Source of the DNA: Hydrogenobaculum sp. 3684
GTDB taxonomy: Bacteria; Aquificota; Aquificia; Aquificales; Aquificaceae
NCBI RefSeq assembly: GCF_000213785.1
Contig: NC_015557.1
Location: 496,001 to 560,000 of the forward strand
Length of the DNA stretch: 64,000 bases
Direction: 5' to 3'
Position numbers and translations under genes: made by a program. The notes beneath the pieces are model-generated. The model was not told the DNA's origin. It worked only from the letters and a program-made list of their open reading frames with translations, and ran no database searches. Of this stretch, positions 3,917-17,965 are shown piece by piece. The stretch's first letter is position 1; every line of letters starts with the position of its first letter.

Positions 3917-4257
3917 GATCTTGGCCCCTCCTCTATGCTACAAGATAAATCCTCTACAAGTATGCCATGCAACATATCAACATTTATAGATTCTATTATA
4001 ACATCTTTTAAAAGCTCCAAAACTTGGTTTTCTTTGTTTATTGAATAATAAACCCATTTGCCTTGTTTTCTGGCTTTTAGTAAAGAAGCATCTTTTAAAA
4101 TCCTAAGATGAAAAGAGATATTTGGCTGAGATATGTTAAAATGCTTCATGAAACTACATACGCATATCTCTTCTTCTTTTAGTAACACACTTATTATCTC
4201 AAGCCTTATATCATCAGAAAGCGCATAAAATATGCGCCTTAGCTCTTCTTTTGTCAT
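3913..4257 (-). CDS. arsR: ArsR-family arsenite-responsive repressor
   Basis: Winged-helix repressor of 114 residues. The helix before the recognition region carries ICVC (Cys32, Cys34), the paired cysteines used by ArsR for As(III)/Sb(III) sensing, followed by the HTH segment MKHFNISQPNISFHLRILK and the wing (LKARKQGKWVYYSI). It probably represses its own operon through the 22-bp palindrome at 4564-4585. The start overlaps the upstream small gene by 4 nt and its end overlaps arsC by 4 nt. Family and metal-site assignment come from the visible cysteines. Confidence 0.93.
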   Translation of the reverse strand: MTKEELRRIFYALSDDIRLEIISVLLKEEEICVCSFMKHFNISQPNISFHLRILKDASLLKARKQGKWVYYSINKENQVLELLKDVIIESINVDMLHGILVEDLSCSIEEGPRS

Positions 4258-4532
4258 TTTACTATTACTTTGGATTTTTCCATAGAAGCTTTTATATCCT
4301 CTTCTGTCACATCGCCTTTTATCTCTATGCTAAGCTTGCCGTTTTCTTTCTTAAAATCCATAAAACTAACCTTGGCTTTCATTTCATTGCTCATACACTC
4401 ACATCTTCCTGCTTTGCAGTTTTCCACTATTTGCTCTACTTTGCTTGGATCCACATCTTCTACTATATCTATTTTAACACCTTCTTGGGTTTGTTTTACT
4501 TCGCTTACGTCTTTTAGCTTTTTGCCTTCCAT
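4254..4532 (-). CDS. Unrecognised 92-residue protein with a three-cysteine motif, first gene of the ars operon
   Basis: I do not recognise the family. The protein is small, highly charged and soluble (no membrane segment). The notable feature is C39-KAGR-C44-E-C46, a CX4CXC cluster followed by Met47; three closely placed thiols are the usual way proteins hold As(III). Two ATGs are possible: one at 4538 is only 2 nt from the GGAGG at 4545-4541, while the ATG at 4532 has 8-nt spacing, so the shorter form was chosen. It is the promoter-proximal gene, overlaps arsR by 4 nt and must be expressed with arsR-arsC. A role in binding or delivering arsenite (chaperone-like) is inference from motif and position. 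Confidence 0.8.
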   Translation of the reverse strand: MEGKKLKDVSEVKQTQEGVKIDIVEDVDPSKVEQIVENCKAGRCECMSNEMKAKVSFMDFKKENGKLSIEIKGDVTEEDIKASMEKSKVIVK

Positions 4533-4560
4533 AAACATTACCTCCTTTTAGGTTAGTATT

Positions 4561-4590
4561 TATTATATAAAAAATTTTTTATATATACAA
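4561..4590 (-). promoter_or_regulatory. ars operon promoter with ArsR operator in the spacer
   Basis: Reading the minus strand, TTGTAT (4590-4585), a 17-bp spacer and TATAAT (4567-4562) form a well-spaced sigma-70-type promoter. The spacer is occupied by a perfect 22-bp palindrome at 4564-4585 whose core is TATAAAAAATTTTTTATA. A repressor bound there would block RNA polymerase, as expected for ArsR autoregulation. Assignment of ArsR to this site is inference. Confidence 0.75.
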
Positions 4591-4630
4591 TGAGTTTTCT
4601 CATAGTAGTTTTATGCTTTTAATGGTAAAA

Positions 4631-4751
4631 TATAATCACCAGGAGATGGCGTTCTCCTTTAACCGCCTCCTTCAAAAGGGGGCTGATAACGCCTACAAGC
4701 TCTGAGATATTTTAGGAGGTTTTATGAACTATCCCGCAGCGCTTGTAGGCG
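4631..4751 (+). ncRNA. Fluoride riboswitch (crcB motif) 1 with expression platform
   Basis: A TATAAT box at 4631-4636 precedes a crcB-type fluoride aptamer at about 4641-4700. P1 hairpin GGAG/CTCC encloses GGCGTT (4648-4653), which pairs as a pseudoknot with AACGCC (4688-4693 region); the P3 stem GCCTCC (4665-4670) pairs with GGGGGC (4678-4683), followed by the conserved TGATAACGCCTAC. Downstream, GCTTGTAGGCG (4741-4751) is perfectly complementary to CGCCTACAAGC (4690-4700), the aptamer's 3' end, so the two folds are mutually exclusive. The competing hairpin would enclose the ribosome binding site and start of the leader ORF. This suggests a fluoride-ON switch for the 4795-7268 operon. Confidence 0.88.
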
Positions 4752-4792
4752 ACATTGAAGCTTTTACAATTAATATATGGAGGGGTATATAA
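4724..4792 (+). CDS. 22-codon leader ORF inside the riboswitch 1 expression platform
   Basis: A strong ribosome binding site AGGAGGT (4714-4720) is placed correctly for the ATG at 4724. The ORF begins MNYPAALVGDIEAF, ends in TAA at 4790-4792, and the next gene starts 3 nt later. Codons 7-10 contain the sequence that can pair with the riboswitch 3' end, so translating ribosomes would cover one arm of the alternative hairpin. It may be a true small protein or only a translated leader that couples initiation at the next gene. I cannot tell which. Confidence 0.55.
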   Translation: MNYPAALVGDIEAFTINIWRGI

Positions 4793-4794
4793 AG

Positions 4795-5535
4795 ATGGAA
4801 AAAGCTATTGAAAAATCTGTAGAATATGTGATGTCTAAGCTTTGTAGCGATGGCGGGTATTCGTTTTATAGACATATATATTTGGAAGAAACAAACATTT
4901 ACGATACTTACTATGCCATAAGAACGCTTATAATGTTTGGTAAAAGTATATCTGATAAAACTATCAGGTATATCCTAAACTCATTTTTAGAGGCTGATAC
5001 ACTTGAAAAATATTATTATTCTATTAGATGTATTGAGCTTTTAAAAGAAGATCCTAGAACATATAGAAAAGGCGTTGAGCTACACTTTGAGATATCAACC
5101 AAACAATTAGAAGATATAAACTTAGAACTTTTAAGGATACTGATGTTTAAAAGGATATCAGCATATTACGATATAGGATACTCTGAAGAAAAAACCAAGC
5201 ATTTTATAAGCTCTATAGATAAATCAGATATAAAAACGGTTTCTTTAATATACGCTATAACAGGTAATTTAGAAAAAGATATAGACCCTTATTTTGACAA
5301 GGATTTAGGCATAGTGCCAATCCCTAACTTAAAATATACAAACATTTCAACTCTTTATGCAGGTTATTGGCTTTTAAAAGCTCTAAACAGAGAATTAAAG
5401 TACATTTCAAAAGCAAAAGAGTTTGTACTTATGACCCAGGACAAATACGGCGCTTTTTCAGAAACCAAAGAAGCTCTACCAGATTTAAGATCAAACTACT
5501 GCGGTATTTTCATATTGAACATATTGAACCTATGA
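4795..5535 (+). CDS. Prenyltransferase/squalene-cyclase-like alpha-alpha toroid protein
   Basis: Protein of 246 residues with repeats resembling the prenyltransferase and squalene oxidase (alpha6-alpha6 toroid) superfamily: DGGYSFYRH near the N-terminus, TNIYDTYYAIRTL, and at the C-terminus DKYGAFSETKEALPD followed by RSNYCGIFIL, the pattern typical of protein prenyltransferase beta subunits. It is shorter than full cyclases (about 600 residues), so it may be a single-domain family member; no enzymatic residues can be assigned with confidence. An alternative ATG at 4777 is less likely because GGAGGGG (4779-4785) lies at proper distance from the ATG at 4795. It is the first main gene under the fluoride riboswitch, before cfa. 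Confidence 0.7.
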   Translation: MEKAIEKSVEYVMSKLCSDGGYSFYRHIYLEETNIYDTYYAIRTLIMFGKSISDKTIRYILNSFLEADTLEKYYYSIRCIELLKEDPRTYRKGVELHFEISTKQLEDINLELLRILMFKRISAYYDIGYSEEKTKHFISSIDKSDIKTVSLIYAITGNLEKDIDPYFDKDLGIVPIPNLKYTNISTLYAGYWLLKALNRELKYISKAKEFVLMTQDKYGAFSETKEALPDLRSNYCGIFILNILNL

Positions 5536-5546
5536 ATAAAGAAATA
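5520..5546 (+). repeat. 27-bp direct repeat, left copy (flanks cfa)
   Basis: The 27 bases here match 6865-6891 at 25 positions (CATATTGAACCTATG core). The left copy covers the end of the toroid gene (including its stop), and the right copy is the leader of the zinc-ribbon gene. The arrangement suggests that the segment between, containing cfa, was added to an older two-gene operon. Confidence 0.8.
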
Positions 5547-5661
5547 TAGAAAGTAGAATGATGATAATAAATATTTTAGGCAAAAGACGAGTGCAAAAAT
5601 TTTTGATGGGCTCAAGTGAGGCTTTATCTTATGTAAGAAAAATAAAAGGAGGAGGTTATAA

Positions 5662-6852
5662 ATGTTAGAATCTTTAATTCAGGAGATTGGTAAAAGGTTA
5701 GAAGAAGGACTATGCGTCGAGCTTCCAGACGGTAGAGTTCTCGGTAGTGGTAATTGCAAAGTTAAAATCAAAGATAAGAATGTTATATTAAACATACTAA
5801 AAGATCCTGAAATGGGCTTTGGAGAGGCATACATGAAAGGAGCCATAGAGATAGATGGAGATATTGAGAGATTTTTAGTGGCCTCCTTTAATTATCTTGA
5901 AGAAAATAAACTAAACAAAAATTTTAGAAATAGTTTATTTAGAAATATTCTTAGATATATTGGACTTCTGAAGTTTACTGAGGAAAAGGAAGTAAGAAGT
6001 CATTACGATCTTGGCAACGACTTTTATAAGCTTTGGCTTGATGATTCTATGACATATTCTTGTGCTTTCTTTACAGATGCACATCAGAGCTTAGAGATGG
6101 CGCAAAAGGAAAAAAGGAAGATTATATATGAAAAACTGCAACTTACCGAGGGGGATAAATTGTTGGATATAGGCTGTGGTTGGGGTGCCATAATTCTTGA
6201 AGCATCAAAACTATACAACATAGAAACTGTAGGTATAACAGTTTCAAAAAACCAATACGATTATATAAAATCAAAGATAGAAAACAATGGACTAAGTAGT
6301 AGAACAAGAGTTTATCTAATGCACTATGAAGATCTACCACGTCTTGGAGAGAAGTTTAACAAAATAGTTTCGGTAGGTATGTTTGAGCATGTAGGTAAAG
6401 GAAGACATAAAGACTTCTTTAAAATAGTACACAATACTATTGAAGAAAAAGGCCTTTTTCTTCTTCACACCATAGGAAAGGGTTTACCAGAAAGCCCGAG
6501 CAAGTGGATAAGAAAATACATATTTCCCGGAGGGTATGTACCTGCACTTACCGAAATAATTGAAGCAACCAAAGGGTTAGAATTCAACCTCATAGATATA
6601 GATGATTGGAGACTCCATTATTACAAGACGCTTCAAGAGTGGAGAAAAAGATTTTATAAGCATGCCGAAGAAGTTGTGAAAAAAAATGGCGAGGAGTTCT
6701 TCCGTATGTGGGACCTTTACTTAATAGGTTCTGCGGTATCGTTCCTAACCGGTTCCAATCATCTTTTTCAAATTCTTTTTTCTAAAGGTGTACTTAATGA
6801 ATACCCTGTTATAAAAAGACAATTCCTTAGCCCTATAACTGTTAATAAATAA
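5662..6852 (+). CDS. cfa: Cyclopropane-fatty-acyl-phospholipid synthase
   Basis: SAM-dependent enzyme of 396 residues that adds a methylene bridge across the double bond of unsaturated acyl chains in membrane phospholipids; acts at the inner face of the cytoplasmic membrane. Visible signatures: HYDLGNDFYKLWLDDSMTYS then Cys134 (residues 114-134; the conserved DPSMTYSC-type block), SAM-binding LDIGCGWGAI (168-177), and GMFEHVG further on. Length matches the family. A strong AAAGGAGGAGG precedes the ATG. It sits in the fluoride-riboswitch operon between the toroid and zinc-ribbon genes and is flanked by 27-bp direct repeats. Cyclopropanation is known to lower membrane proton permeability in acid stress; a role against HF entry is inference. 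Confidence 0.93.
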   Translation: MLESLIQEIGKRLEEGLCVELPDGRVLGSGNCKVKIKDKNVILNILKDPEMGFGEAYMKGAIEIDGDIERFLVASFNYLEENKLNKNFRNSLFRNILRYIGLLKFTEEKEVRSHYDLGNDFYKLWLDDSMTYSCAFFTDAHQSLEMAQKEKRKIIYEKLQLTEGDKLLDIGCGWGAIILEASKLYNIETVGITVSKNQYDYIKSKIENNGLSSRTRVYLMHYEDLPRLGEKFNKIVSVGMFEHVGKGRHKDFFKIVHNTIEEKGLFLLHTIGKGLPESPSKWIRKYIFPGGYVPALTEIIEATKGLEFNLIDIDDWRLHYYKTLQEWRKRFYKHAEEVVKKNGEEFFRMWDLYLIGSAVSFLTGSNHLFQILFSKGVLNEYPVIKRQFLSPITVNK

Positions 6853-6896: not shown

Positions 6897-7268
6897 ATGA
6901 AATGGTTTTGTCCTTATTGCTGGGCTGAACTAAAAGGGGATGAAAGGATATGCCCCAATTGCGGGAAAGATATCTATCATTTTACATCTCTTGATTTTGA
7001 TGAAAAACTCTTATATGGCCTTGATAACCCAACACCAGAAAATAGAATGCTTGTAATAGAAGTAATAGAAAAAAGAAAAAATCAAAAAGCTGTTCCTAAG
7101 CTTTGTAGTATGCTATCAGAAGAAAGAGACACCTACGAGCTAATGGCTATCGTTAAAGCCCTTTTGTCTATATCAAACAAAGAAGCTATAGATTGTCTTA
7201 AGCATCATAACTTTGATAAAAACGTCATACTAAGAAAGTTTTTAGAAGATCATCTTAATAAATATTAG
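6897..7268 (+). CDS. Zinc-ribbon protein with HEAT-like helical tail
   Basis: Small protein of 123 residues. The N-terminus is a zinc ribbon, CPYC (residues 5-8) and CPNC (19-22), followed by a helical region with HEAT-like pattern (NRMLVIEVIEKRKNQKAVPK, then AIVKALLSISNKEAIDCLKH). No enzymatic motif is visible, so it is probably a scaffold or adaptor; the exact function is unknown. It is the last gene of the fluoride-riboswitch operon, 44 nt after cfa, and its stop overlaps the convergent pyruvate kinase end by 4 nt. Confidence 0.75.
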   Translation: MKWFCPYCWAELKGDERICPNCGKDIYHFTSLDFDEKLLYGLDNPTPENRMLVIEVIEKRKNQKAVPKLCSMLSEERDTYELMAIVKALLSISNKEAIDCLKHHNFDKNVILRKFLEDHLNKY

Positions 7269-8698
7269 AGTTTTATAACCTCCAAAGAGTTACCAACGTC
7301 TTTATTTCTTTTAGAAGGTCCTCTAAGAAGCACTGCGTAAGTGTTTTGTAGGCTTTTATAAAGATTATCTCCAACGATGTTTTTTATATACTCTTTCCAA
7401 GCGTTTACACTGTATTTGTCGGTGGGAGGGTTTTGATCGTAAAAGCCAAAAACCCCGTAAGAGAACCCCAAATGTTTTTTCACCCTTTCATCACGTGTGA
7501 TACCAAGCACCCAGACAGGGAGTTTAAACTTGCTCATACGCCTTGCTGTAGTACCGCTGGTGGTGGGTACAATCATAAGAGATGCGTTTATATGCTTTGC
7601 CATGTTAAAAGCGTTGTATGCCATTATATCTTCTAAGGTGTTTAAAGTTGATAGCTCTTGTAAAAAAGCTTTGTAAATAGGGTTTTTGTCAAACTCTTTT
7701 TCAGCGCACGCTGCTATATTTGCCAACGTAGATACCACCAAATCTGGTTGTTTTCCTATCGCAGACTCTTCAGATACCATAATGCAATCTGTTCCATCCA
7801 ATATGGCGTTGGCAACATCTGAGGCTTCTGCCCTTGTGGGTCTTGGGCTTTCTACCATAGATTCAAGCATCTGGGTAGCTGTTATTACAGGTTTTCCAGC
7901 TAAGTTGGCTTTTTTGATGATATGTTTTTGGGTCATAGCTATACATTCTATAGGGGTTTCTATGCCAAGATCCCCTCTTGCCACCATGATACCATCTGAG
8001 GCTTCTAAAATCTCATCTATATTTTTTAAAGCCTGTGGTCTTTCTATTTTAGCTATTATAAAAGGATGATAATCTATGGTGTTGCAATACTCTTTTGCAT
8101 CTATTACATCTGATTGATCTTTTACAAAGGATACGCTTATAGCATCCATATCTATCTTTTTAGCAAAATCAATGCATCTTTTTTCATAATCACCGATGGC
8201 TTTTACCGGAAGGTCTACATTTGGTAAATTTACACCTTTGTGAGAAGAGATCTTACCAGCACTTAGGCTAACAGCGTACACCTTATCATCTTCTACTTTC
8301 TCCACCATTAGCTCTACGAAACCATCGTTCATGTATATACTATCACCTGCTTTCACATACTTACTAAAATCCTTAAAATTTATTGGTATTACTCCTTCTT
8401 GGGGCTTTTCTGATAAGATGAGAATATCTCCTTTCTTAATCTCCATCGGTTTGATATCCCCTATTCTTATCTTTGGTCCCGGTAAATCTCCCATTATCGT
8501 TACATCTTTGCCTACTATTTTTGAGGCTTTTCTTATATTTTCTACAACGCTTTTGTGCTCTTCAAAACTCCCATGAGCAAAGTTTATCCTTGCAATGTTC
8601 ATTCCATTTTCTATCATCTTTGTAAGAGTTTCAATCTCTTGTGAAGCTGGTCCTATGGTACATACGATCTTTGTTTTACTTTTTGAAAACTCTATCAT
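7265..8698 (-). CDS. pyk: Pyruvate kinase
   Basis: Glycolytic enzyme of 477 residues converting phosphoenolpyruvate and ADP to pyruvate and ATP. Signatures include KTKIVCTIGPAS at the N-terminus, GDLPGPKIRIG, IIAKIERPQAL, the catalytic MVARGDLGIE segment and the ATQMLESM block. Length is normal without the extra C-terminal PEP-utiliser domain. It starts 22 nt after the CLC gene, so it can be read from the fluoride-responsive crcB promoter, but TATAAT at 8717-8712 followed by GGAGGGGG suggests its own promoter too. Fluoride inhibits enolase, the enzyme that feeds pyruvate kinase, which gives a possible reason for the linkage (inference). Confidence 0.95.
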   Translation of the reverse strand: MIEFSKSKTKIVCTIGPASQEIETLTKMIENGMNIARINFAHGSFEEHKSVVENIRKASKIVGKDVTIMGDLPGPKIRIGDIKPMEIKKGDILILSEKPQEGVIPINFKDFSKYVKAGDSIYMNDGFVELMVEKVEDDKVYAVSLSAGKISSHKGVNLPNVDLPVKAIGDYEKRCIDFAKKIDMDAISVSFVKDQSDVIDAKEYCNTIDYHPFIIAKIERPQALKNIDEILEASDGIMVARGDLGIETPIECIAMTQKHIIKKANLAGKPVITATQMLESMVESPRPTRAEASDVANAILDGTDCIMVSEESAIGKQPDLVVSTLANIAACAEKEFDKNPIYKAFLQELSTLNTLEDIMAYNAFNMAKHINASLMIVPTTSGTTARRMSKFKLPVWVLGITRDERVKKHLGFSYGVFGFYDQNPPTDKYSVNAWKEYIKNIVGDNLYKSLQNTYAVLLRGPSKRNKDVGNSLEVIKL

Positions 8699-8720
8699 CT
8701 TACCCCCTCCTATTATAATT

Positions 8721-10109
8721 TTAAGCTAGGCTTTTGTAAGCGGGAGAATCTTCTCTTGTTTTTACTTGGGATTTGTATATAGAATAATCTCCAGAGACCA
8801 GGTAAGCTACCGCCACCGCCAACATACAAGCTGGTAAAAGCTGATAACTACCAGTCATCTCTACAACCATAAGAGTCACTGCCACAGGAGCCTTACCAGC
8901 AGCGCCAAACAAAGCCAACATACCAACTATTACAAAACCACCTATATGACTTGTATTCACCAAAGACGGAAAAAGCTGATGGTAAACAATACCAAGCCCC
9001 GCTCCTAAAAATCCACCTATAAAAAGCCCCGGTGCAAACACACCCCCAGAAGCTCCAGAACCTACCGTCAAAGATGTGGCTATTATTTTTATAAAAGCCA
9101 ACAAAACAAAGAATATAAAAAGAGGAATACCGTATGTATTAAACATACTAAACTTGGTATCTATAGCACCCTGAAGCCAACCGTAACCAGTTCCTAAAAC
9201 CTCCGGGAAAGCCATACCTATAATACCTGTTAAAAACATACCTATGACAGGTTTTAAATATATGTTTGTTTTTAGGCTTTTAAAAAGATTATCTTTAAAA
9301 TAATAAAATGTTCTTGCATATATGCGCCCAACGATTCCGCACACGATACCTAAGATTATATAAAGGGGCAATCTTAGAGGGTTAAAATTTTGTAGATAAT
9401 ACCCAAACACAGGCACAAAACCAACGATACTCCCAAATATAGAATATCCTACAGCAGAAGCCACAAGCCCAGGAAATATGATATCGGCTTGTAAATCAGA
9501 TTTATAAAGGATTTCAGCTCCTAAGATAGCACCACCTATGGGAGCTTTAAAGATAGTACCTATACCTGCTCCTATACCCACGGCCAACATCCTTTCCCTA
9601 TCTTTTTCGCTGAGCCCCAAAAGTCTTGCAAGCCAAGAGCCTATCCCTGCAGATATGAGCGCCGTAGGACCTTCTCTTCCAGCAGAACCCCCAGATCCTA
9701 TAGTAATAGCAGAAGCTATGGTCTTTATAAAAATTACCCTATCTCTTATAAAACCTTTTTTGTTGTGATAGGCATCTATTGCTGCATCGGTACCATGTCC
9801 CTCAGCCTCCGGAGCCCACTTAAACACTATGAATCCAGCTATAAAACCACCAAAAGCTATTACAATGGGTAATAGATAAACCAATCCTGGCTTAAAAATA
9901 AGGTTGTTTGTTTCCTCACCAGTGGGAGATGGTATATGATAATGAAGGATTTTGTTAAAAAATATAAACTCACAAAGCTTTAAACTATAATAAAAGAAAA
10001 GAGCACCAAGTCCAGATATAACACCGTTTATTAGTCCAAGTATAAACCACTTTAAAAAATAATCTTGCCTTGATATAAAACTACCTATCTTGTGGAATAT
10101 ATTATCCAT
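8721..10109 (-). CDS. CLC-type anion channel/antiporter in the fluoride operon
   Basis: Integral membrane protein of 462 residues with the CLC helices. Visible motifs: GSGGSAGREGP, carrying the gating glutamate, and GSGASGGVFAPGLF (the GxFxP segment). At the position of the usual GSGIP selectivity motif it reads GHGTD, so the canonical serine and proline are absent. Its location after crcB and two DUF190 genes suggests that it moves fluoride (some CLC proteins are F-/H+ antiporters), but it could also be a chloride antiporter; the residues visible here do not decide. It overlaps the preceding DUF190 gene by 8 nt. Confidence 0.88.
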   Translation of the reverse strand: MDNIFHKIGSFISRQDYFLKWFILGLINGVISGLGALFFYYSLKLCEFIFFNKILHYHIPSPTGEETNNLIFKPGLVYLLPIVIAFGGFIAGFIVFKWAPEAEGHGTDAAIDAYHNKKGFIRDRVIFIKTIASAITIGSGGSAGREGPTALISAGIGSWLARLLGLSEKDRERMLAVGIGAGIGTIFKAPIGGAILGAEILYKSDLQADIIFPGLVASAVGYSIFGSIVGFVPVFGYYLQNFNPLRLPLYIILGIVCGIVGRIYARTFYYFKDNLFKSLKTNIYLKPVIGMFLTGIIGMAFPEVLGTGYGWLQGAIDTKFSMFNTYGIPLFIFFVLLAFIKIIATSLTVGSGASGGVFAPGLFIGGFLGAGLGIVYHQLFPSLVNTSHIGGFVIVGMLALFGAAGKAPVAVTLMVVEMTGSYQLLPACMLAVAVAYLVSGDYSIYKSQVKTREDSPAYKSLA

Positions 10110-10401
10110 ACACTACCTCACAATCTGATATAACAATATGAATATTTTTGTCTTTTAGTCTGTCTACAAGAGTGTTTATTTTTTCATCTTCATCTACTAT
10201 CTCCATCTTCATACCCGGATTGTAAGATTCTACCTCTATATACTCGTTTGAAACCCGCCCAGAAGGCCCATAAGAATAAATTGACTCGTATATAGTGGCG
10301 CCTTTTATACCAATTTCTTCTAAAAGCCCATAGATATAATTTTTTACATTTTTATGCCCTATTTTATCTTGCTCTTTGTAGTATATTCTTAGCTTCTTCA
10401 T
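10102..10401 (-). CDS. DUF190 (PII-like) protein, copy 2
   Basis: Protein of 99 residues related to its neighbour 10398-10709 and to DUF190, a PII-like signalling fold often found beside crcB. The IKGATIYESIYSYGPSGRV segment matches the family's GATVxRGIEGFG block in a diverged form, and KMEIVDEDEKI matches the EIVDxEEKI block. It overlaps the genes on both sides (4 nt upstream, 8 nt downstream). Role in gating or sensing of the fluoride channel is inference. Confidence 0.82.
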   Translation of the reverse strand: MKKLRIYYKEQDKIGHKNVKNYIYGLLEEIGIKGATIYESIYSYGPSGRVSNEYIEVESYNPGMKMEIVDEDEKINTLVDRLKDKNIHIVISDCEVVYG

Positions 10402-10709
10402 CTTACTATCTCCACCTCTTCAAGGGTTATAAGACCTGTGTTTAGCTCTTGAAGTATATTTTTTAATACAGGTAATATTTTTTCTATATTCTCTTTTGTG
10501 TCTATGATTTCAATGGCTACTGGTTCATTCTTTTCAAATAAACCATGATGATGTATTTTATGGGATTTACCATAACCCTCTATAGCTCTAAACACCGTTG
10601 CACCGTGAATACCGTTTTCCATACAAACATGCTCTATGCTACTACACAAAGATTTACCCTTATACTTTATCCCATGCTCTATAAGTATTTGAAGAAGATA
10701 CCCTTTCAT
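10398..10709 (-). CDS. DUF190 (PII-like) protein, copy 1
   Basis: Protein of 103 residues with the DUF190 consensus clearly visible: GIHGATVFRAIEGYGKSHKI, then VAIEIIDTKENIEKILPVL and a GLITLEEVEIV end. These are PII-like cytoplasmic proteins thought to bind a small ligand; they commonly sit next to crcB. The gene overlaps crcB upstream by 4 nt and copy 2 downstream by 4 nt, so stoichiometry is likely coordinated. The two copies are diverged, so they may form a heteromer (inference). Confidence 0.9.
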   Translation of the reverse strand: MKGYLLQILIEHGIKYKGKSLCSSIEHVCMENGIHGATVFRAIEGYGKSHKIHHHGLFEKNEPVAIEIIDTKENIEKILPVLKNILQELNTGLITLEEVEIVR

Positions 10710-11074
10710 AACAAACCTCCCAAAAATCTACCAAGAGCCACAAATAAAAACCCAATTACGTTTGTGCCCACTATGTAATAAAAAGCTTTGAGATAATCTG
10801 CATTGTTTATAAGACCTATGCCTTCTAATGTAAATGTAGAAAATGTCGTATATCCACCAAGAAAGCCTGTTATAAGAAGAAGTCTTATGTTTGGAGGAGC
10901 ATCTATCACCTCAGTTAGGTATATGCTTAAAAACCCTATTAAAAACGCTCCCGTTGTATTTATCACCATTGTACCAAGAGGAAAGTTTGGCACAAACTTC
11001 TGAATAAAAATAGAGACCAGATACCTGGTCAAAGCACCTACACCACCACCTAAAAGAACCACTAAGTAGTTCAC
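10706..11074 (-). CDS. crcB: Fluoride channel CrcB/FluC
   Basis: Fluoride-specific channel of 122 residues and four transmembrane helices that works as a dual-topology dimer and lets cytoplasmic F- leave the cell. Visible motifs: GGGVGALTRY near the N-terminus, GTMVINTTGAFLIGF, and TGFLGGYTTFSTF, the Fluc signature. Only one crcB is present here, so a homodimer is expected. The start is GTG at 11074, with GAGGAGGT at 11085-11078 giving correct spacing; the ATG 4 nt earlier is followed at once by a stop. Expression is controlled by the fluoride riboswitch directly upstream. Confidence 0.96.
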   Translation of the reverse strand: MNYLVVLLGGGVGALTRYLVSIFIQKFVPNFPLGTMVINTTGAFLIGFLSIYLTEVIDAPPNIRLLLITGFLGGYTTFSTFTLEGIGLINNADYLKAFYYIVGTNVIGFLFVALGRFLGGLL

Positions 11075-11077
11075 ATC

Positions 11078-11172
11078 ACCTCCTCAAAATATAGAGTAGG
11101 TAGGCGTTATTAGCCTTATATGTGAGGCGGTTTTGATGCTTTTATGAGCATCAAGGAGAACGCCATCTCCTT
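11078..11172 (-). ncRNA. Fluoride riboswitch (crcB motif) 2, upstream of crcB
   Basis: On the minus strand, AAGGAG/CTCCTT form P1 around GGCGTT, an inserted hairpin (GATGC/GCATC) follows, then GCCT/AGGC form P3 and TAATAACGCCTAC completes the aptamer. Downstream, ACCTACTC (11101-11094) can pair with the ribosome binding site GAGGAGGT (11085-11078) with one mismatch, an 8-nt loop between them. That is a clear way to hide the SD when fluoride is absent. The whole 95-bp segment is identical to 17813-17907. Confidence 0.93.
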
Positions 11173-11179
11173 GGCTAAC

Positions 11180-11208
11180 ATTATACAAAATCACATACAT
11201 AAGTTCAA
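11180..11208 (-). promoter_or_regulatory. Promoter of the crcB operon
   Basis: On the minus strand TTGAAC (11208-11203), a 17-bp spacer and TATAAT (11185-11180) form a near-consensus promoter. Transcription would start at about 11173, exactly at the first base of the fluoride aptamer. Confidence 0.85.
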
Positions 11209-11225
11209 TGATCTTACTCAATTAA

Positions 11226-13085
11226 TCAAAGTTTAAAAACAATCAGTGCTATGACAAATATAGCTATGATATAAATAATGTAATAATGTAAATAACCATT
11301 CATAATTATGTTTGACACAATAGCGCTTAATCGTTTGAAAAAGCGTACCAAGAAATCGTATATAGCGTTTGATATATCGTAGGTTTCGACACTGGTTCTT
11401 AGTTCTTTCGTTCTATATATGCCTCTTAACACATACTCCACTATAAAAGAATAGCCTCTGGTATTGTAAACCTCGTTTTCTTTCAAAGGTAAACCTCCAA
11501 CCCAAGGTATGGTGGTTTTTACATTTTTGTTTTGGGCTTTTAGTATGATCAACAAACTTATCAAGAAAAATCCTACCACGATGAAAAACATGAAAGGCGA
11601 TATGACACCAAATATCGGTCTACTTGAGACAATAAGCGTAGGTTTAGGGACACCTAAAAGCCCATCCAAGAACTCTTCGTATCCAAGATATTTTATTATT
11701 AAAAACGATAAAACACCGCTTGTTATAATAAGAAAACTAAGTATATTTTCTGCCCATTTCATTGTAAAATCTTTAAACCTTTTTAGTTCAAAGTTTAGTT
11801 CACCAAGATCAGAAAATCCCACAAGCTTTTTCATACTAAAAGAACTAAGTCCCATCGCAAGAGCTATCAAAATACCGGCAAAAGTGATTATAAACTTCAA
11901 TAGAAAATCAGAAAACTTGTAAGATTGAAACAAGCTTTCAAGAAGCATCCACTCTGCTACAAAACCCACCAACGGAGGCACCGCACTAAAAGATAAACCG
12001 GATATAAGTAAGCCTATACCGGCGGGTTTGCTAATGTGCTTTAAAATACCCCTTACATCATCTATGGAATCTCTTCCAAGCATCTCTTTTGCATGCCCAA
12101 TGGTTAAAAACATCGTGGTTTTTGATAAAGAATGAGCTATTATGATGATGAGCGCTGTAAGGTAGGAAAATTTTGACAGCACCGTTAAATGGCTGTATTT
12201 CGCAAGTGCGCTCAGACCAACGGCTGTTAGTATCATGCCGTTGTTTTCTATAGTAGAATAAGCCGGTAGTGTTTTTAAATGGGTTTCTCTGGCCGCCTGT
12301 AAAGCACCCCAAAAAGCACTTATAGAACCTATTATTATTGCCAAAATCCCCAATACATAAGAATAATTATCGCTTAGAACCAATACCCTAAATACACCGT
12401 AGGCTCCTATAAGTGTTAATGGTACAGAAAGAATGGCGGCTATGTTTGAAGGGGCTTTAGGATAAACCAAAGGAACCCATATATGGGTTGGAACTCCGTC
12501 CATTTTCATAACAAATCCCAAAAACGCAAAAACCGCAAACAAAACGTTGTTGTATCCAGCTTTAAACAAAAACAAACCGTTTGAAGCTATTACTACAGCA
12601 AAACCCACAAACAAAAGAGCGTAAGAGACTTCAGAAAAAGCTAAAAAGATATAACCCTCTTTTTGGGTGTTTGGTCTTTCTAATATGCTGAAAAAAAGGA
12701 TTATGGTTACAAATTTAAAAGCGATAAGAAAACTTATAAAATCCGCTGCACAAAAAACAATAAGCATACTAAGCATCAGAAAGTTCATCAAAAAAGCCAT
12801 AGACTTTTTAAAAAGCTTACCAAAGTCTATAGAGTAAAAAGCCATCAAAGCAAAGCATATGTAAGCAATGATTATAAAAAACGATGATACTTTGTCTATG
12901 TTTATACCTAAACTAACGTTGTTGTATATATCCCATTGATGGTAAAATCCATCTTTGTACCCTTCAAAGCCAAGCACAACTGCAGATATAGCACCCAAAA
13001 CACCAAAGCTATAACTTATTGTTCTATTAAAAGAAAACACCATTCCCAAAAGGAAAAAAATTATCGCTAGTACAAATGCTAACAT
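11226..13085 (-). CDS. HyfB/NuoL-like antiporter-type subunit of an Ehr complex
   Basis: Polytopic membrane protein of 619 residues of the proton-conducting NuoL/M/N family (PF00361). The central pattern FVMKMDGVPTHIWVPLVYP and AHSLSKTTMFLTIGHAKEML identify it as the hydrogenase-4 component B type. The position where the family usually has W-E in the fifth helix reads F123-K124, so one ion-path glutamate seems to be replaced. It is the last gene of a six-gene operon (C-, E-, F-, G-, I-, B-like) and overlaps the I-like gene by 7 nt. It would form part of the ion-translocating membrane arm. Confidence 0.88.
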   Translation of the reverse strand: MLAFVLAIIFFLLGMVFSFNRTISYSFGVLGAISAVVLGFEGYKDGFYHQWDIYNNVSLGINIDKVSSFFIIIAYICFALMAFYSIDFGKLFKKSMAFLMNFLMLSMLIVFCAADFISFLIAFKFVTIILFFSILERPNTQKEGYIFLAFSEVSYALLFVGFAVVIASNGLFLFKAGYNNVLFAVFAFLGFVMKMDGVPTHIWVPLVYPKAPSNIAAILSVPLTLIGAYGVFRVLVLSDNYSYVLGILAIIIGSISAFWGALQAARETHLKTLPAYSTIENNGMILTAVGLSALAKYSHLTVLSKFSYLTALIIIIAHSLSKTTMFLTIGHAKEMLGRDSIDDVRGILKHISKPAGIGLLISGLSFSAVPPLVGFVAEWMLLESLFQSYKFSDFLLKFIITFAGILIALAMGLSSFSMKKLVGFSDLGELNFELKRFKDFTMKWAENILSFLIITSGVLSFLIIKYLGYEEFLDGLLGVPKPTLIVSSRPIFGVISPFMFFIVVGFFLISLLIILKAQNKNVKTTIPWVGGLPLKENEVYNTRGYSFIVEYVLRGIYRTKELRTSVETYDISNAIYDFLVRFFKRLSAIVSNIIMNGYLHYYIIYIIAIFVIALIVFKL

Positions 13086-13531
13086 ATCAAACCCCTTTTG
13101 GCTATCTCCACCAATTTTTTAAATATTTCCTCAGCTTCCAAATTTCCTTTCAAGCGTCCCACCAGGTTTGGCAAGTCAATATCAACGCCGTTTTCAAAAG
13201 TTTCATTTTCTATAAGAAGTACTCCAAAAGGCTCTGGCATCTGATTTATAGCCTCTTTAACTATCGGCAGCATTTTCTCTGTGGGTTTTGATAAGATAAT
13301 CAACAAATCCGCATGTCTTGGCGTATTTACAAAGAAAATGCCGTACCTGTGAATGTTGTATTTTGGAGACATAAGGCTGTAAAATTCTAAAAGGAGTTCT
13401 ACATCAGATCCAGCATCAATCACAAATACATGCAAAGATCTTCTGAAAGGGTTTCTGGGCTTAGAAGGAATGTCAAACTTGTATCTTTTGCTGTATCTTT
13501 TTGAAAGTCCGTAAATTGGCCAAAACAACAT
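13079..13531 (-). CDS. HyfI/NuoB-like small subunit without iron-sulfur ligands
   Basis: Protein of 150 residues related to the 20-kDa subunit of complex I and group 4 hydrogenases: RRSLHVFVIDAGS (31-42) and NTPRHADLLIIL (69-80) align with the family. The cluster motif normally reading GSCNGCD here reads GSDVELL (41-47), and the only cysteine in the protein is the last residue (150). All ligands for the [4Fe-4S] cluster are therefore missing. It probably has a structural role, tying the large-subunit homologue to the membrane arm. It starts 13 nt after the G-like gene. Confidence 0.87.
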   Translation of the reverse strand: MLFWPIYGLSKRYSKRYKFDIPSKPRNPFRRSLHVFVIDAGSDVELLLEFYSLMSPKYNIHRYGIFFVNTPRHADLLIILSKPTEKMLPIVKEAINQMPEPFGVLLIENETFENGVDIDLPNLVGRLKGNLEAEEIFKKLVEIAKRGLIC

Positions 13532-13544
13532 AATCTATCCTCCG

Positions 13545-14768
13545 CTATTTTGCCGCATCTGCGAAAAAGGCTCCAAAAGAGTCTATCGTAAAAGCAAAAT
13601 CTGTAAAAATTTGGCCCACCAAAGATGCTTCCATCGCTTTTATCAAAAACATGGAAGGCGTTGAAATATAGACGTATTTAATTTTATCTCCTAAAAGCTC
13701 AATATAATAATAAATTGCACCGCTTGGAGACTCAGCAAAGCCAATTGCCGTTCTTTTTTGATTATCCTTTTCAATTTTAATGTTTGTTTTGTTGTTTGAT
13801 GTTTTAAGCTTTTGGAAAAGCTTTTTTATAAGTTCCATAGATTGCATGATTTCCTCAGCTCTTACTATCATCCTTGAAAGAGAATCTCCGCCCTCATGCA
13901 CTATGCTATCAAAGCCCTCCAACAGCTCTTCGTAAACTCTGGTATCTAAAGATGCACCTATGGCTTTAAGAGCTGGCCCATCAAAATTGATAGATTCAAA
14001 ATCCTCCATTGTCAAAATACCTGTGTTGTGCAACCTATCTAAATAATTGTAGCTTTTTAAAGAAAACTGATAAAGCTTCGAAAACTCTTTTACTATGTCA
14101 TCAAGCTTTTTAACAAACTCTTCCATCTTATCTTTAGATATACCTTTGATTGTGCCAATAGTGTTTATATTTTTTAAAAATCTACTTCCAAAAAACGTTT
14201 TGTTTAAACTAAGTATTTCATCAAATAGATATATTAGATGATTTGTAAAAACCTTTTGGGCAGCAGCACCGCTAAGACGAGATATAACAAATATATGGTT
14301 AAATATACGCTCCACCTCAAGAAGTATAAGCCTCATAATCTTTGTGTTATCGTCTGGTGTTATACCAAATGCCTCTTCCACAGCCCTTGAAAACGCACAA
14401 GAATGAGAAAAGGAAAAGCTTGCACAAATTTGTTCTGATAGTTTTAAAGCCTCAAAGATATCTTTGTTTATCATCTTATTTTCTATAAATCTTGACTTGT
14501 AGGTATTGTCTATATAAACCTCTTTCATTCTCTCTCCGTAAGTGTATATATTAAAAACCACAGACTCAAACAATGCCCCAGCCGAAGGTCCAAGTCTAAA
14601 GTTAAAAAGCTCATCTTTGGTTTCTTTGGCTTTTATTAAACCTTTTTGCCAATTGTAAGCTTTAAAGTCTTTACTTTGAGAGCTATCCACAAAACCTACA
14701 AATGTTCCAGAGCTTACAAAAAGTTGCTCTTTGCCATCGATATTTACTATACCAAGAAGCCTTTTCAT
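13545..14768 (-). CDS. HyfG/HycE-like large subunit lacking the NiFe site
   Basis: Homologue of the group 4 NiFe-hydrogenase large subunit / NuoD, 407 residues. The region SEQICASFSFSHSCAFSRAV (111-130) aligns with the family's RICGxC...HSxAFCRAVE, but only the first cysteine (Cys115) remains; the second position is Phe118. At the C-terminus the DPCxxC motif is replaced by DSFGAF. Thus three of four NiFe-binding cysteines are gone, while the framework (LEVERIFNHIF, 150-160) is kept. This is the hallmark of energy-converting hydrogenase related (Ehr) complexes. Hydrogen chemistry is not expected. It overlaps the F-like gene by 4 nt. Confidence 0.87.
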   Translation of the reverse strand: MKRLLGIVNIDGKEQLFVSSGTFVGFVDSSQSKDFKAYNWQKGLIKAKETKDELFNFRLGPSAGALFESVVFNIYTYGERMKEVYIDNTYKSRFIENKMINKDIFEALKLSEQICASFSFSHSCAFSRAVEEAFGITPDDNTKIMRLILLEVERIFNHIFVISRLSGAAAQKVFTNHLIYLFDEILSLNKTFFGSRFLKNINTIGTIKGISKDKMEEFVKKLDDIVKEFSKLYQFSLKSYNYLDRLHNTGILTMEDFESINFDGPALKAIGASLDTRVYEELLEGFDSIVHEGGDSLSRMIVRAEEIMQSMELIKKLFQKLKTSNNKTNIKIEKDNQKRTAIGFAESPSGAIYYYIELLGDKIKYVYISTPSMFLIKAMEASLVGQIFTDFAFTIDSFGAFFADAAK

Positions 14769-16132
14769 TTTATAACTCCCTCAATAAACCTATAAAAGAT
14801 AGGAACTATAAGTATCACAAACGCAGCCAATGTTATAAATATTACCGGTACAAAGGTAAAAGGACTTTCTTTTGCAGAAGATACTGGTTTTGTCTCATCG
14901 TTAAATACCATGTTTATCACCCTGTAGTTTATAAACAAAAATCCACACATCAAAAAGAAAAATAAAGCAACTCCTACAATCCAACCATAATAGTTTATAG
15001 TTTTTGATACTATTAAAAGCTCACCAAAAAATGTGGCAAAAGGTGGTGTGCCTGTAACCGCAAGCGCACCAAAGAACAAAAATAAACCAGTTTTCGGCAT
15101 AATCTTAATAAGCCCTTTAACATCTTCGATCTTTCTTGTTTTAAGTTCATGAAGCATGTTGCCTGTTAACATAAACACGCCGGATTTGGCAAAAGCGTGA
15201 GTGAATATCAAAACGATAGTACCAAACAAAGCGTAAGAGCCCAAACTTACGCCTATCAACGAAAGACCCATATTTTCAACAGATGAATAGGCAAACAGCC
15301 TTTTGTACAACCTTTGATTTAAAGTCATGATACTACCAGTCATAACGCTTAAAAAGCCTAAAACAAATGCAAATTTTGATAAAGATGGATCTTGATAAAC
15401 TTCAAAAAACCTTATCAAAGGATACAAGGATACAGGCAGTAAAACAGCGCTAAATATAGCACTTATAGGAGCTGGAGCTTTCCCATGGGCGTCCGGAAGC
15501 CATGTATACATAGGGAAAATACCAATCTTTGTCCCATAGCCTATCACAAGCAACATCCCGCTAAGGAAAAACAAGCTACCTTGATTTTGTCGGCTTAAAA
15601 GATCTGTTATAGATAACGTATGGGCTGATGAGTACAAAAAGAGCGTCCCCACAAGGCCAATTGTAAGGCCCACAGATACTATCATGATGTATCTCCAGGC
15701 TGCTTCAAGAGCTGCTATATCATTTTCTGAGGCCACAAGTAAAGCTGTGGCAAAAGTAGTAGCCTCTATGGAAACCCAAAAAAGACCAAAATTGTTTAAA
15801 GTCACACTAAAAAGCATGATACCAACAAATATATCCAGGAGTGAAAAATATTGACAAGATTTTACAAGATGTCCATGAGAATGTTCTAAATATCCTATTG
15901 AAAATATCACTACACCAAGATAAACAGAAGATATCATGAGCAGAAAAATCTTTGATAAGCTATCCACATAAAAGAATGCGGTAAATCTATCTGGCTCAAA
16001 CAATAGAAAGATTGAAAACACCAAAGCCAAAAAACTAGCCAAAACCGATGCTTCTTTGTGCTTACTTCTAAAAAGACTAAAACTTAAAATAGCACCAAGC
16101 GTTGCAGATATAGAAGGCAATAAATATATCAT
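14765..16132 (-). CDS. HyfF/NuoN-like antiporter-type subunit of an Ehr complex
   Basis: Membrane protein of 455 residues with about 14 helices, NuoL/M/N family. The residues used for proton transfer are retained: NFGLFWVSIEATTFATALL with Glu123, GYGTKIGIFPMYTWLPDAH with Lys202, and THAFAKSGVF further on. It therefore looks able to move ions even though the associated redox subunits lack metal ligands. It overlaps both neighbours by 4 nt in the operon driven by fluoride riboswitch 3. Confidence 0.9.
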   Translation of the reverse strand: MIYLLPSISATLGAILSFSLFRSKHKEASVLASFLALVFSIFLLFEPDRFTAFFYVDSLSKIFLLMISSVYLGVVIFSIGYLEHSHGHLVKSCQYFSLLDIFVGIMLFSVTLNNFGLFWVSIEATTFATALLVASENDIAALEAAWRYIMIVSVGLTIGLVGTLFLYSSAHTLSITDLLSRQNQGSLFFLSGMLLVIGYGTKIGIFPMYTWLPDAHGKAPAPISAIFSAVLLPVSLYPLIRFFEVYQDPSLSKFAFVLGFLSVMTGSIMTLNQRLYKRLFAYSSVENMGLSLIGVSLGSYALFGTIVLIFTHAFAKSGVFMLTGNMLHELKTRKIEDVKGLIKIMPKTGLFLFFGALAVTGTPPFATFFGELLIVSKTINYYGWIVGVALFFFLMCGFLFINYRVINMVFNDETKPVSSAKESPFTFVPVIFITLAAFVILIVPIFYRFIEGVIK

Positions 16133-16752
16133 CCTAAAAGTTCCTCCTCTTTTTCTATATCTTCATCCCTTACCCTCATTAAAAGACCGGCCACCACCAC
16201 AACACCCAAAACATCCAAGATAATACCAGCTTCTACTATAAAAGGCAGTTCACTAAAGAGAAAAGAAAGCAAGAACATAGAATTTTCCATCACAAGATAA
16301 CCAATTAATTGTGAATAAGCGTTAGAACGAGAGACTATTAAAAAAGCACCTTGAAGCATAAGGGTAATAGGGATAGAAACCAAAGATTGACCATATCCGG
16401 CCAAAATCAAATAATATACAAGGTATCCAAACACAGCCAAAAGCAAAGATATAAGTATAGAAAGACCTGTGCTAATCCTATGTTTATTTTCCCTTGCTCT
16501 ATATATTTGCTTTCTTATAGTATTACCCAAATACAAAGGCATTGCTATAGCTCTTGTTATAATTGTCAGTAAAGCTAGTATAATGAGGGCTGTAAAACCG
16601 TGAAAAACCCCAGCCCACAACAAAAAGATACCTAAAATCCAAGACTGCACAGAAAATGTTTTGATATTGCTTATAGTATAAGCTTGCCATTGCATAAAAA
16701 TAGAAAGTATAATTTCCCAAAAACCCACCAGCGCAAATATCTCCTTTTCCAT
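16129..16752 (-). CDS. HyfE-like (NuoK-type) membrane subunit
   Basis: Membrane protein of 207 residues with six or so helices, matching hydrogenase-4 component E by length, position and pattern (FQ/W-rich N-terminal helices, then AYSQLIGYLVMENSMFLLSF, which is the NuoK-like Q(x)GxxxxENxxFL segment with its glutamate retained). The C-terminus is acidic. It starts 1 nt after the C-like gene and overlaps the F-like gene by 4 nt. No redox cofactor is expected in this subunit. Confidence 0.85.
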   Translation of the reverse strand: MEKEIFALVGFWEIILSIFMQWQAYTISNIKTFSVQSWILGIFLLWAGVFHGFTALIILALLTIITRAIAMPLYLGNTIRKQIYRARENKHRISTGLSILISLLLAVFGYLVYYLILAGYGQSLVSIPITLMLQGAFLIVSRSNAYSQLIGYLVMENSMFLLSFLFSELPFIVEAGIILDVLGVVVVAGLLMRVRDEDIEKEEELLG

Positions 16753-16753
16753 A

Positions 16754-17707
16754 TTAGCCTCCGTTTACCACGTAGAACACCACCATTGCCATCAATGCAA
16801 AGCTAAAAGCTATGAGAATATAATCAAAGATCTTAAACAATCTGTACTTGGAGACTATGTTGTTTATAATAGCAAAGATAGCCAAGAGTAAAATAATCTT
16901 TAGAAAGTTTATAAACATATAGAGAACTATAGCCAATATGTTAAATTTCATAGGTACAAAAAACGGCAATGTGAATACGTTAAGAAAAACATTCATTAGA
17001 AGAAAAGATTTTATGTAGCTTCCCAACTTTAAAAGTGCCAGCTCCCTGCCAGAGTACTCTAAACTCATAAGACTATCGATAGAGCCAAACTCGTTGGGCG
17101 TATGGCTTTCAATGGGAAGCTGTCCAGTTTCTATTATAAGCACCAGGAAAAACGCAACGCCTACAAAAAGGTGTACCAAAGAGAAAAACCAACTGGTAGA
17201 TGTTTGTAAAATATTGTTTATTACATATGGATTGTTGGTACCCGATATAACACCAAACATTATAAATATTAGAAGGATAATGGGTTCTGTAAAAATACCT
17301 ATACTTGAGGCCCTTGAAGCACCCAATATTGAATAGCTGTTTCTGGAGTCTAAAGAAGCCAACTTCAAAAAAGTAGAAGCTGCACCAAACACCAACCCAC
17401 CACCTACAAAATCCACCACAGGTCCAAAAAGCAAAGGAAAGGCTGTTATTATAGGCAATACCAGCGTCAGAAATAAATACATTCCAAAAGTAATGTAAGG
17501 AACGTAGGAGAAAAAACCTGAAGCAGTTTTTGGATAAATGCTTTGCTTTCTAAAAAACTTAAAAAGATTGTAATACTCTTGGAATATAGAAGGTCCACGC
17601 CTTGAAGAAAGCCTCTCATCAAACACATGAAGTATGCCAACGGCCAAAGGAGCCAGGGCAAAAACATACAAAAGCTGTAATATGCTTAAGAAAAACAGAT
17701 TAAGCAT
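16754..17707 (-). CDS. HyfC/NuoH-like membrane subunit
   Basis: Membrane subunit of 317 residues related to HycD/HyfC and NuoH, which connects the peripheral arm to the membrane arm. The typical RRGPSIFQEYYNLFKFFRK loop (36-54 region) and IETGQLPIESHTPNEFGS loop with conserved glutamates are visible. It is the first large gene of the Ehr operon. No good ribosome binding site precedes its ATG; it starts 5 nt after the stop of a 30-codon ORF, so it is probably translated by coupling to that ORF. Confidence 0.9.
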   Translation of the reverse strand: MLNLFFLSILQLLYVFALAPLAVGILHVFDERLSSRRGPSIFQEYYNLFKFFRKQSIYPKTASGFFSYVPYITFGMYLFLTLVLPIITAFPLLFGPVVDFVGGGLVFGAASTFLKLASLDSRNSYSILGASRASSIGIFTEPIILLIFIMFGVISGTNNPYVINNILQTSTSWFFSLVHLFVGVAFFLVLIIETGQLPIESHTPNEFGSIDSLMSLEYSGRELALLKLGSYIKSFLLMNVFLNVFTLPFFVPMKFNILAIVLYMFINFLKIILLLAIFAIINNIVSKYRLFKIFDYILIAFSFALMAMVVFYVVNGG

Positions 17708-17712
17708 AAAAC

Positions 17713-17805
17713 TTATAAACTATTAAACAATGATACAAAGATAAAAAGAACCTTTAATCGTTCCCACCCAAGAACAACTTTCTTTACTCTCACAGGGCTA
17801 ACCAT
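17713..17805 (-). CDS. 30-codon leader ORF between fluoride riboswitch 3 and the Ehr operon
   Basis: An ATG at 17805 lies 7 nt after the strong GAGGAGGT (17820-17813) that forms the 3' end of the riboswitch segment. The ORF starts MVSPVRVKKVVLGWERLK, continues with a hydrophobic stretch (VLFIFVSLF) and stops 5 nt before the HyfC-like ATG, which lacks its own SD. It may encode a basic single-helix peptide or serve as a coupling leader. Since the riboswitch controls this SD, the whole complex depends on translation of this ORF. Confidence 0.65.
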   Translation of the reverse strand: MVSPVRVKKVVLGWERLKVLFIFVSLFNSL

Positions 17806-17812
17806 ACACCTT

Positions 17813-17907
17813 ACCTCCTCAAAATATAGAGTAGGTAGGCGTTATTAGCCTTATATGTGAGGCGGTTTTGATGCTTTTATGAGCATCAAGGAGAACGCCA
17901 TCTCCTT
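17813..17907 (-). ncRNA. Fluoride riboswitch (crcB motif) 3, upstream of the Ehr operon
   Basis: Exact 95-bp copy of the segment 11078-11172, including the aptamer and the SD GAGGAGGT (17820-17813). ACCTACTC (17836-17829) can pair with this SD as in the crcB copy. A TATAAT at 17925-17920 would start the transcript at the aptamer's first bases; the -35 region is weak. The perfect identity implies recent duplication or gene conversion, and places the hydrogenase-like operon in the same fluoride response as crcB. Confidence 0.92.
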
Positions 17908-17965
17908 AAACCTGAGGTTATTATAACAAAACATCTAAATGCTTTCTATGATAGGTATCATTATA

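Follow-up and report, generated by a model that had tools for sequence, protein, structure and literature searches.

A fluoride riboswitch-controlled Ehr complex devoid of metal sites in Hydrogenobaculum sp. 3684: the most reduced member of a fluoride-linked family and a candidate non-redox ion translocator

Organization of the six-gene operon

The complete 1.55-Mb genome of Hydrogenobaculum sp. 3684, a hot-spring bacterium of the Aquificota, contains an operon for a hydrogenase-4/complex I-like complex preceded by a fluoride riboswitch. We analyzed a 64,000-nucleotide stretch of this genome (hereafter, the window; positions 496,001–560,000 of NC_015557.1). Six open reading frames (ORFs), arranged on the minus strand in the order C-E-F-G-I-B, lie between murC and crcB, and their ends overlap or nearly touch. 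The gene proximal to the riboswitch encodes a HyfC/HycD/NuoH-like membrane anchor (16754–17707), which matches Pfam PF00146 (NADHdh; 2e-26) and, in a phmmer comparison, HycD (7z0s_D; 3e-32). It is followed by a HyfE-like membrane subunit (16129–16752; NF008556, hydrogenase-4 membrane subunit, 6e-12), a HyfF-like antiporter subunit (14765–16132; PF00361, Proton_antipo_M, 1e-53), a HyfG/NuoD-like large subunit (13545–14768; Complex1_49kDa, 2e-22; NiFeSe_Hases, 5e-10), a HyfI/NuoB-like small subunit (13079–13531; NuoB subfamily, 9e-12) and a HyfB-like antiporter subunit with a C-terminal extension (11226–13085; PF00361, Proton_antipo_M, 3e-25; HycC, 7z0s_C, 9e-27). The Pfam and NCBIfam assignments agree with each other and with the six subunit types named in a preceding sequence-only reading of this DNA.

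The aptamer upstream of the operon (17829–17914, minus strand) scores 52.6 bits against RF01734 (gathering score 34; E 1e-11), and a promoter-like TATAAT –10 element ends at approximately 17920. The fluoride link noted in the sequence-only reading is thereby confirmed, and it recurs across phyla. Between the riboswitch and hyfC lies a leader ORF of 30 codons (MVSPVRVKKVVLGWERLKVLFIFVSLFNSL; 17713–17805, minus strand) with a strong Shine-Dalgarno sequence. Its stop codon is located directly upstream of the hyfC start, and the translation of the two may be coupled. A short leader ORF, overlapping hyfC, is also present at L063, the closest relative of the window operon. In folding and sequence analyses, the Shine-Dalgarno sequence pairs with the stretch following the aptamer, and the pseudoknot strand lies in the same hairpin, most clearly in L063. 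This arrangement suggests sequestration of the Shine-Dalgarno sequence in competition with the pseudoknot.

Absence of metal sites in the large and small subunits

HyfG retains one of the four NiFe-coordinating cysteines (Cys115), and the other three positions are occupied by Phe118, Phe401, and Asp404. Cys115 and Phe118 align with the two N-terminal NiFe cysteines, while the C-terminal register was set against the true hydrogenases L047 and L062. The sequence-only reading had correctly singled out Cys115 and the replacement at Phe118, but its placement of the DPCxxC motif at Phe398/Phe401 was off by three residues, as the motif aligns with Phe401/Asp404. In HyfI, GSDVELL stands where relatives have GSCNGCE, and the PGCPP stretch is absent. 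All four cluster cysteines are lost, in agreement with the earlier reading, and the sole cysteine of the protein is its last residue. HyfI also lacks the ferredoxin domain that most relatives carry fused to this subunit. The six proteins contain only seven cysteines in total, and therefore no iron-sulfur cluster can be built. Judged from these sequences, a cluster-based electron path is excluded, barring unusual ligands, and redox chemistry is very unlikely for the window member.

The predicted AlphaFold2 structures of HyfG and HyfI (predicted local distance difference test scores of 84 and 83, respectively) retain the NuoD and NuoB folds. Their best solved matches in Foldseek are HycE (7z0s_E; TMq 0.76) for HyfG and HycG (7z0s_G) for HyfI. 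The N-terminal region of about 48 residues in HyfG has no confident fold.

A fluoride-linked family with graded cofactor loss

When an alignment of five HyfI sequences was run against one genome per species, it gave 384 sites, of which 362 were confirmed. The alignment was needed because searching the genomes with only the HyfG protein of the window returned no matches. The best 80 of at least 362 relatives were read, and together with four plasmid loci they constitute the family set (84 loci). To call riboswitches, Rfam-confirmed switches were used to build a covariance model. A fluoride riboswitch precedes hyfC in 60 of the 66 family loci with enough upstream DNA, as compared with none of 16 control Ehr/Hyf loci; the loci were picked by the HyfI protein motif and not by riboswitch, but the seeds were riboswitch-linked, and the share may thus be biased upward. 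In two of the remaining six loci, a match below the threshold is present at hyfC. The official Rfam model, applied to eight diverse loci, placed seven above the gathering score upstream of hyfC. Genes for CrcB, DUF190, enolase, pyrophosphatase, or CLC occur in 52 of the 84 family loci and in none of eight control loci. An Alicyclobacillus plasmid (L052), on which a fluoride riboswitch precedes a lone HyfG-like gene (8411–10113) with no other complex genes within the 19 kb read, was excluded from these linkage counts.

The plasmid homologs, from Mycobacterium branderi, Burkholderia, and Caballeronia, have the C-E-F-G-I-B order and adjoin genes for enolase, DUF190, pyrophosphatase, CrcB, or CLC. 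Fluoride riboswitches lie upstream of their hyfC genes, with a NUDIX gene in between in M. branderi. The window operon shares this gene order and the riboswitch upstream of hyfC, and it carries the clade markers, namely His179 and a small residue at position 133 in HyfC and the HRxGIFF motif in HyfI. The description of the complex as Ehr-like and riboswitch-linked in the sequence-only reading stands, but not its treatment as a single oddity: the window complex belongs to a large family, of which it is the most reduced representative.

The NiFe ligands are present in none of 82 family large subunits. The iron-sulfur ligands fall into three grades. Small subunits of the first grade (Proteobacteria and Acidobacteria) contain GSCNGCE and PGCPP and are fused to a ferredoxin domain with two clusters. 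Those of the second (Actinobacteria) contain GSDGSEE and PGSPP, with one CxxCxxC left, and those of the third (the window and L063) have neither a cluster ligand nor the ferredoxin domain. These grades indicate, at the level of sequence, a stepwise loss of iron-sulfur ligands with retention of the riboswitch. The absence of redox chemistry claimed previously is very likely for the window member but cannot be extended to the whole family, as the Proteobacterial members carry iron-sulfur ligands.

In a tree of HyfC, HyfF, and HyfG, the family and 11 controls are split at 100/100. The pair formed by the window and L063 groups with the cluster-poor side (98/93), but its branch is long and its exact position is uncertain. 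The loss of the N2 cluster inside the family would require at least two changes, or three losses if no regain occurred. The L063 proteins are approximately 50–68% identical to those of the window and show the same cofactor loss. The L063 hyfF gene (3443–4819) is split by a frameshift, which is likely an assembly error in a contig with only about 1.5x coverage.

Conserved charges of the membrane arm

The membrane subunits of the window complex are rich in conserved charges. HyfC keeps Asp99, Asp120, Arg132, Glu141, Glu193, Glu206, Glu217, and Lys233, in addition to the family-specific His179, and HyfE keeps Glu156 and Glu174. HyfF retains Glu123, Lys202, Asp214, His216, Lys277, Glu286, His312, Lys316, and Glu371; the presence of Glu123 and Lys202, stated in the sequence-only reading, is thus supported by the alignment. 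HyfB retains Lys194, Glu280, His318, Lys322, and Glu378. The residues that are near-invariant in the family comprise Arg132, Glu141, Glu193 (Asp in 10 of 67), Glu206, Glu217, and Lys233 of HyfC; Glu156 and Glu174 of HyfE; Glu123, Lys202, His216, Lys277, Glu286, His312, and Lys316 of HyfF; and Glu124, Lys194, Glu280, His318, Lys322, and Glu378 of HyfB. The window complex holds all of these charges except HyfB Glu124. This glutamate of transmembrane helix 5 is Lys in the window (codon AAA, 12714–12716), whereas it is Glu in 82 of 82 family members and 12 of 12 controls. At the equivalent position of the Escherichia coli formate hydrogenlyase (FHL), the HycC E135A mutation did not significantly lower H2 production (PMC9474812).

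Two positions in HyfC distinguish the family from the controls. His179 is found in 66 of 67 family sequences and in none of 12 controls. The equivalent of HycD Glu130 in the E-channel is Ala, Ser, Thr, or Val in 66 of 67 family sequences, in contrast to Glu in all 12 controls. As far as these alignments indicate, the ion path is conserved, yet differs from that of FHL.

Riboswitch repeats and history of the locus

The genome contains three fluoride riboswitches, all within the window. The riboswitch of the crcB transcription unit (11094–11179, minus strand; RF01734, 52.7 bits) has its own TATAAT element (11180–11208), and the third lies at 4633–4702 on the plus strand. The operon riboswitch is an exact duplicate of the adjoining crcB riboswitch: a 95-bp direct repeat, comprising the riboswitch and the Shine-Dalgarno sequence, flanks the operon, with the left copy at 17813–17907 being 100% identical to the right copy, that of crcB, at 11078–11172. 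Since the operon lies between identical copies of the crcB riboswitch, the operon and crcB are expected to be under common control.

The operon was found in one of five genomes of the genus. In a sibling genome (G032), whose flanks are 95–97% identical, the operon is absent and a single riboswitch links the murC side to crcB; a single base and a 3-base indel distinguish this copy from the window repeat. The left repeat copy of the window retains the promoter side in common with the sibling. The operon was either gained by recombination at the riboswitch or lost in the sibling between the repeats. With this empty site, the riboswitch repeat itself would be the homology through which a resistance operon was acquired or lost. 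No close homolog was detected in the other Aquificota genomes examined, the remaining homologs being at most about 30% identical. Descent from the Hyf/Ehr paralogs of Aquificota was considered and rejected, as these are only about 29% identical and fall outside the clade. The GC content of the operon equals that of the host. L063 possesses its own riboswitch, which differs in sequence from that of the window, and fluoride control has thus been kept, although the window switch has the sequence of the host's own.

Neighboring genes and genomic surroundings

The neighboring minus-strand unit encodes a CrcB/Fluc fluoride channel (10706–11074; PF02537, 5e-29), two DUF190 proteins (10102–10709; PF02641, 2e-25 and 9e-15), and a CLC anion transporter (8721–10109; PF00654, 1e-91). 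A fluoride-type CLC identity was ruled out for the last of these by its chloride-type signature (GSGGS...GREGP), which is not that of CLC-F, although the gene is situated downstream of a fluoride riboswitch in the crcB unit. A pyruvate kinase gene (7265–8698) follows on the same strand and may belong to the fluoride unit, comparable to enolase elsewhere. On the plus strand (4633–6852), the third riboswitch is followed by genes for a prenyltransferase-like protein and a cyclopropane-fatty-acid (CFA) synthase. A CFA synthase gene is also located directly behind a fluoride riboswitch in L078, L091, L093, and L144, and this recurrence may reflect membrane tightening against HF or H+.

Elsewhere in the family, dynamin-family GTPase genes occur near the complex in 16 of 84 loci (e.g., L053, 242–2347; L056, L066, and L121), and some loci (L085, L119, L077, and L138) contain two side-by-side copies of the complex genes. 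Judging by their names, many loci come from acidophiles (Acidiphilium, Acidimicrobiaceae, Aciditerrimonas, Acidobacteria), although this is an impression only. Ancylobacter dichloromethanicus (L066; genome G137, contig C49) has 24 riboswitch matches, 23 of them on one 73-kb contig, which also holds the complex, crcB, DUF190, and enolase genes and constitutes a large fluoride-resistance island. Another genome of the same taxonomic family (G163) has 20 fluoride riboswitches. In that family, a riboswitch above the cut-off was found in 63 of 150 genomes, mostly as a single copy; of 29 new loci read from this search, 21 have crcB near the switch and none has hyfC there. Among the carriers of the complex that were checked, the number of riboswitches ranges from 1 to 24. 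These few genomes give the impression that the complex is an extra for coping with heavy fluoride exposure and not a core component.

Comparison with known systems

Ehr complexes are defined as group-4-like complexes without Ni/Fe-coordinating residues, and their function is unproven (PMC6349859). The window complex conforms to this definition, as the sequence-only reading had recognized, in that its large subunit lacks these residues and its membrane part has antiporter-like and NuoH-like subunits. Ordinary Ehr complexes, including a paralog in the same genome (L042; HyfG about 29% identical), share the subunit types and the NiFe-less large subunit with the window complex. They differ in gene order, which is mostly B-C-E-F-G-I or distributed over split operons, and they have neither a fluoride riboswitch nor nearby fluoride genes, being separated from the family by the 100/100 branch. 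N2-type cysteines, which are not part of the published definition, are kept in 13 of 14 control loci (the exception being L051), whereas the window complex has none. For one Ehr in an acidophile, a role in pH has been suggested (PMC6688271).

FHL and hydrogenase-4 (E. coli FHL-1, 7z0s) provide the closest solved structures for HyfB and HyfC and, by fold, for HyfG and HyfI. In contrast to these group 4a enzymes, the window complex has no four-cysteine NiFe site and no clusters, and its operon contains no formate dehydrogenase or ferredoxin subunit. Mrp Na+/H+ antiporters have in common with it the antiporter-like subunits with Glu/Lys pairs; however, the window operon has NuoH-, NuoD-, and NuoB-like subunits and no MrpB/C/E/F/G-like ORF. 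The DAB inorganic-carbon complex (DabA/DabB) likewise contains a NuoL-like subunit that works with the proton motive force and without redox chemistry, and DAB2 is a precedent for such a subunit with no redox partner (PMC13144422). The window complex differs from DAB in having six complex I-type subunits and no DabA.

The sequence-only reading had also mentioned an association between formate hydrogenlyase genes and fluoride riboswitches. This proved correct: "formate hydrogen lyase" is listed as a riboswitch target (PMC2864571), and the entry is repeated in a fluoride review (PMC11139923), where it is read as metabolism. The listed name denotes a redox enzyme, but the hydrogenase site is missing from all fluoride-linked members examined here, and the target listed since 2010 is probably the fluoride-linked Ehr family.

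Proposed mechanism and alternative explanations

Considering the findings described above, we favor a model in which the locus encodes a fluoride-inducible, cofactor-free, non-redox complex that translocates ions and copes with the H+ that enters as HF, and we assign this model a probability of about 0.5. Fluoride acts as a weak acid that enters as HF and lowers the cytoplasmic pH and the proton motive force, and Na+/H+ antiporters are the next commonest class of fluoride-riboswitch targets after F– exporters (PMC11139923). In the proposed mechanism, cytoplasmic fluoride would dock the pseudoknot strand of the aptamer, free the Shine-Dalgarno sequence, and turn translation on. The six proteins would assemble into an L-shaped complex without redox centers, whose membrane arm, formed by the HyfC E-channel and the antiporter-like units of HyfF and HyfB, may move H+, most likely in exchange for a cation or by relay along the proton motive force. 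Such movement would deal with the H+ from HF entry and dissociation and restore the pH and membrane potential needed for F– exit through CrcB, and HyfG and HyfI may form a cap for docking, gating, or coupling instead of an electron path. In acidophiles, F– exit through CrcB channels would be hindered where the membrane potential is weak or reversed, and an ion-gradient converter would be useful under these conditions. Acidophiles, the apparent source of many family loci, would also face the highest HF load.

Several observations weigh against this model. Many family members retain N2 and two ferredoxin-type cluster motifs, and electron transfer may therefore matter in such members. The window lineage has a branch length of 2.6, and its HyfI keeps only 27 of 54 family-invariant residues. 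The HyfB glutamate of transmembrane helix 5 is lost in the window complex; together with the loss of the E-channel Glu130 equivalent, this indicates that the proton path is modified. Moreover, with no energy input, a membrane arm on its own might leak.

The same losses bear on the alternative explanations. An operon that is confined to one of five genomes of the genus, flanked by a recent exact repeat, and altered at HyfB Glu124 and many family-invariant HyfI positions might be a recently acquired, decaying, or non-functional passenger. We consider this improbable, given that the six ORFs are all open and overlapping or tightly spaced, most conserved charges are kept, and the GC content resembles that of the host. 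L063 shares the cofactor loss and has open frames, apart from the single hyfF break on its low-coverage contig, and since this relative, despite its divergence, has a riboswitch of its own, the reduced form has evidently persisted. The cluster motifs of the Proteobacterial members would alternatively accord with a family of redox enzymes, in which fluoride stress redirects a module for electron input or output; the window member would then be a remnant, either degenerate or with a regulatory role. Published Ehr proposals do presume redox coupling (PMC6349859), and in the fluoride review the association is interpreted as metabolism by formate hydrogenlyase (PMC11139923). This explanation is nonetheless rather unlikely, as no family large subunit has a NiFe site, the annotated plasmid loci have no dehydrogenase gene next to the operon, and whole clades have lost the cluster ligands while retaining the riboswitch and the membrane residues.

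The fluoride control, the co-location with F– exporters, and the occurrence of the complex among many riboswitches in high-resistance islands would also fit a complex that itself exports fluoride, by F–/H+ antiport or HF extrusion, through a rebuilt HyfC/HyfG cavity and the antiporter subunits. The family-specific changes in HyfC, namely the gain of His179 and the loss of the HycD Glu130 equivalent, could be read in the same way. However, CrcB is nearby in many loci (in the neighboring unit in the window), and F– exit is thus already served, no known F– site is recognizable, and no complex I relative is known as a halide carrier. Direct export is accordingly unlikely, though it merits more weight than a remnant enzyme or a passenger.

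Implications for the Ehr family

Both the riboswitch association of "formate hydrogen lyase" (PMC2864571) and the existence of Ehr complexes with unproven function (PMC6349859) were already known. New, as far as the open literature shows, are the recognition that the fluoride-linked members form one family with no hydrogenase site in any member examined, the graded loss of clusters, and the metal-free form in the window. No description of a fluoride-linked Ehr family was found in the open literature, and a prior mention in subscription papers is possible. Extending the model to the whole family is more tentative: its members may be complex I relatives recruited for fluoride stress, acting without redox chemistry and driven by ion gradients, with the window form as a metal-free, complex-I-shaped transporter that possibly carries fluoride.

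Since 2010, the listing of "formate hydrogenlyase" among fluoride-riboswitch targets has gone without explanation, and the present findings correct the reading of these genes in the fluoride literature as a metabolic shift to formate and H2. They provide the Ehr complexes with a defined inducer and a function that can be tested, and the window complex offers a natural experiment in which the membrane arm of complex I is uncoupled from electron transfer.

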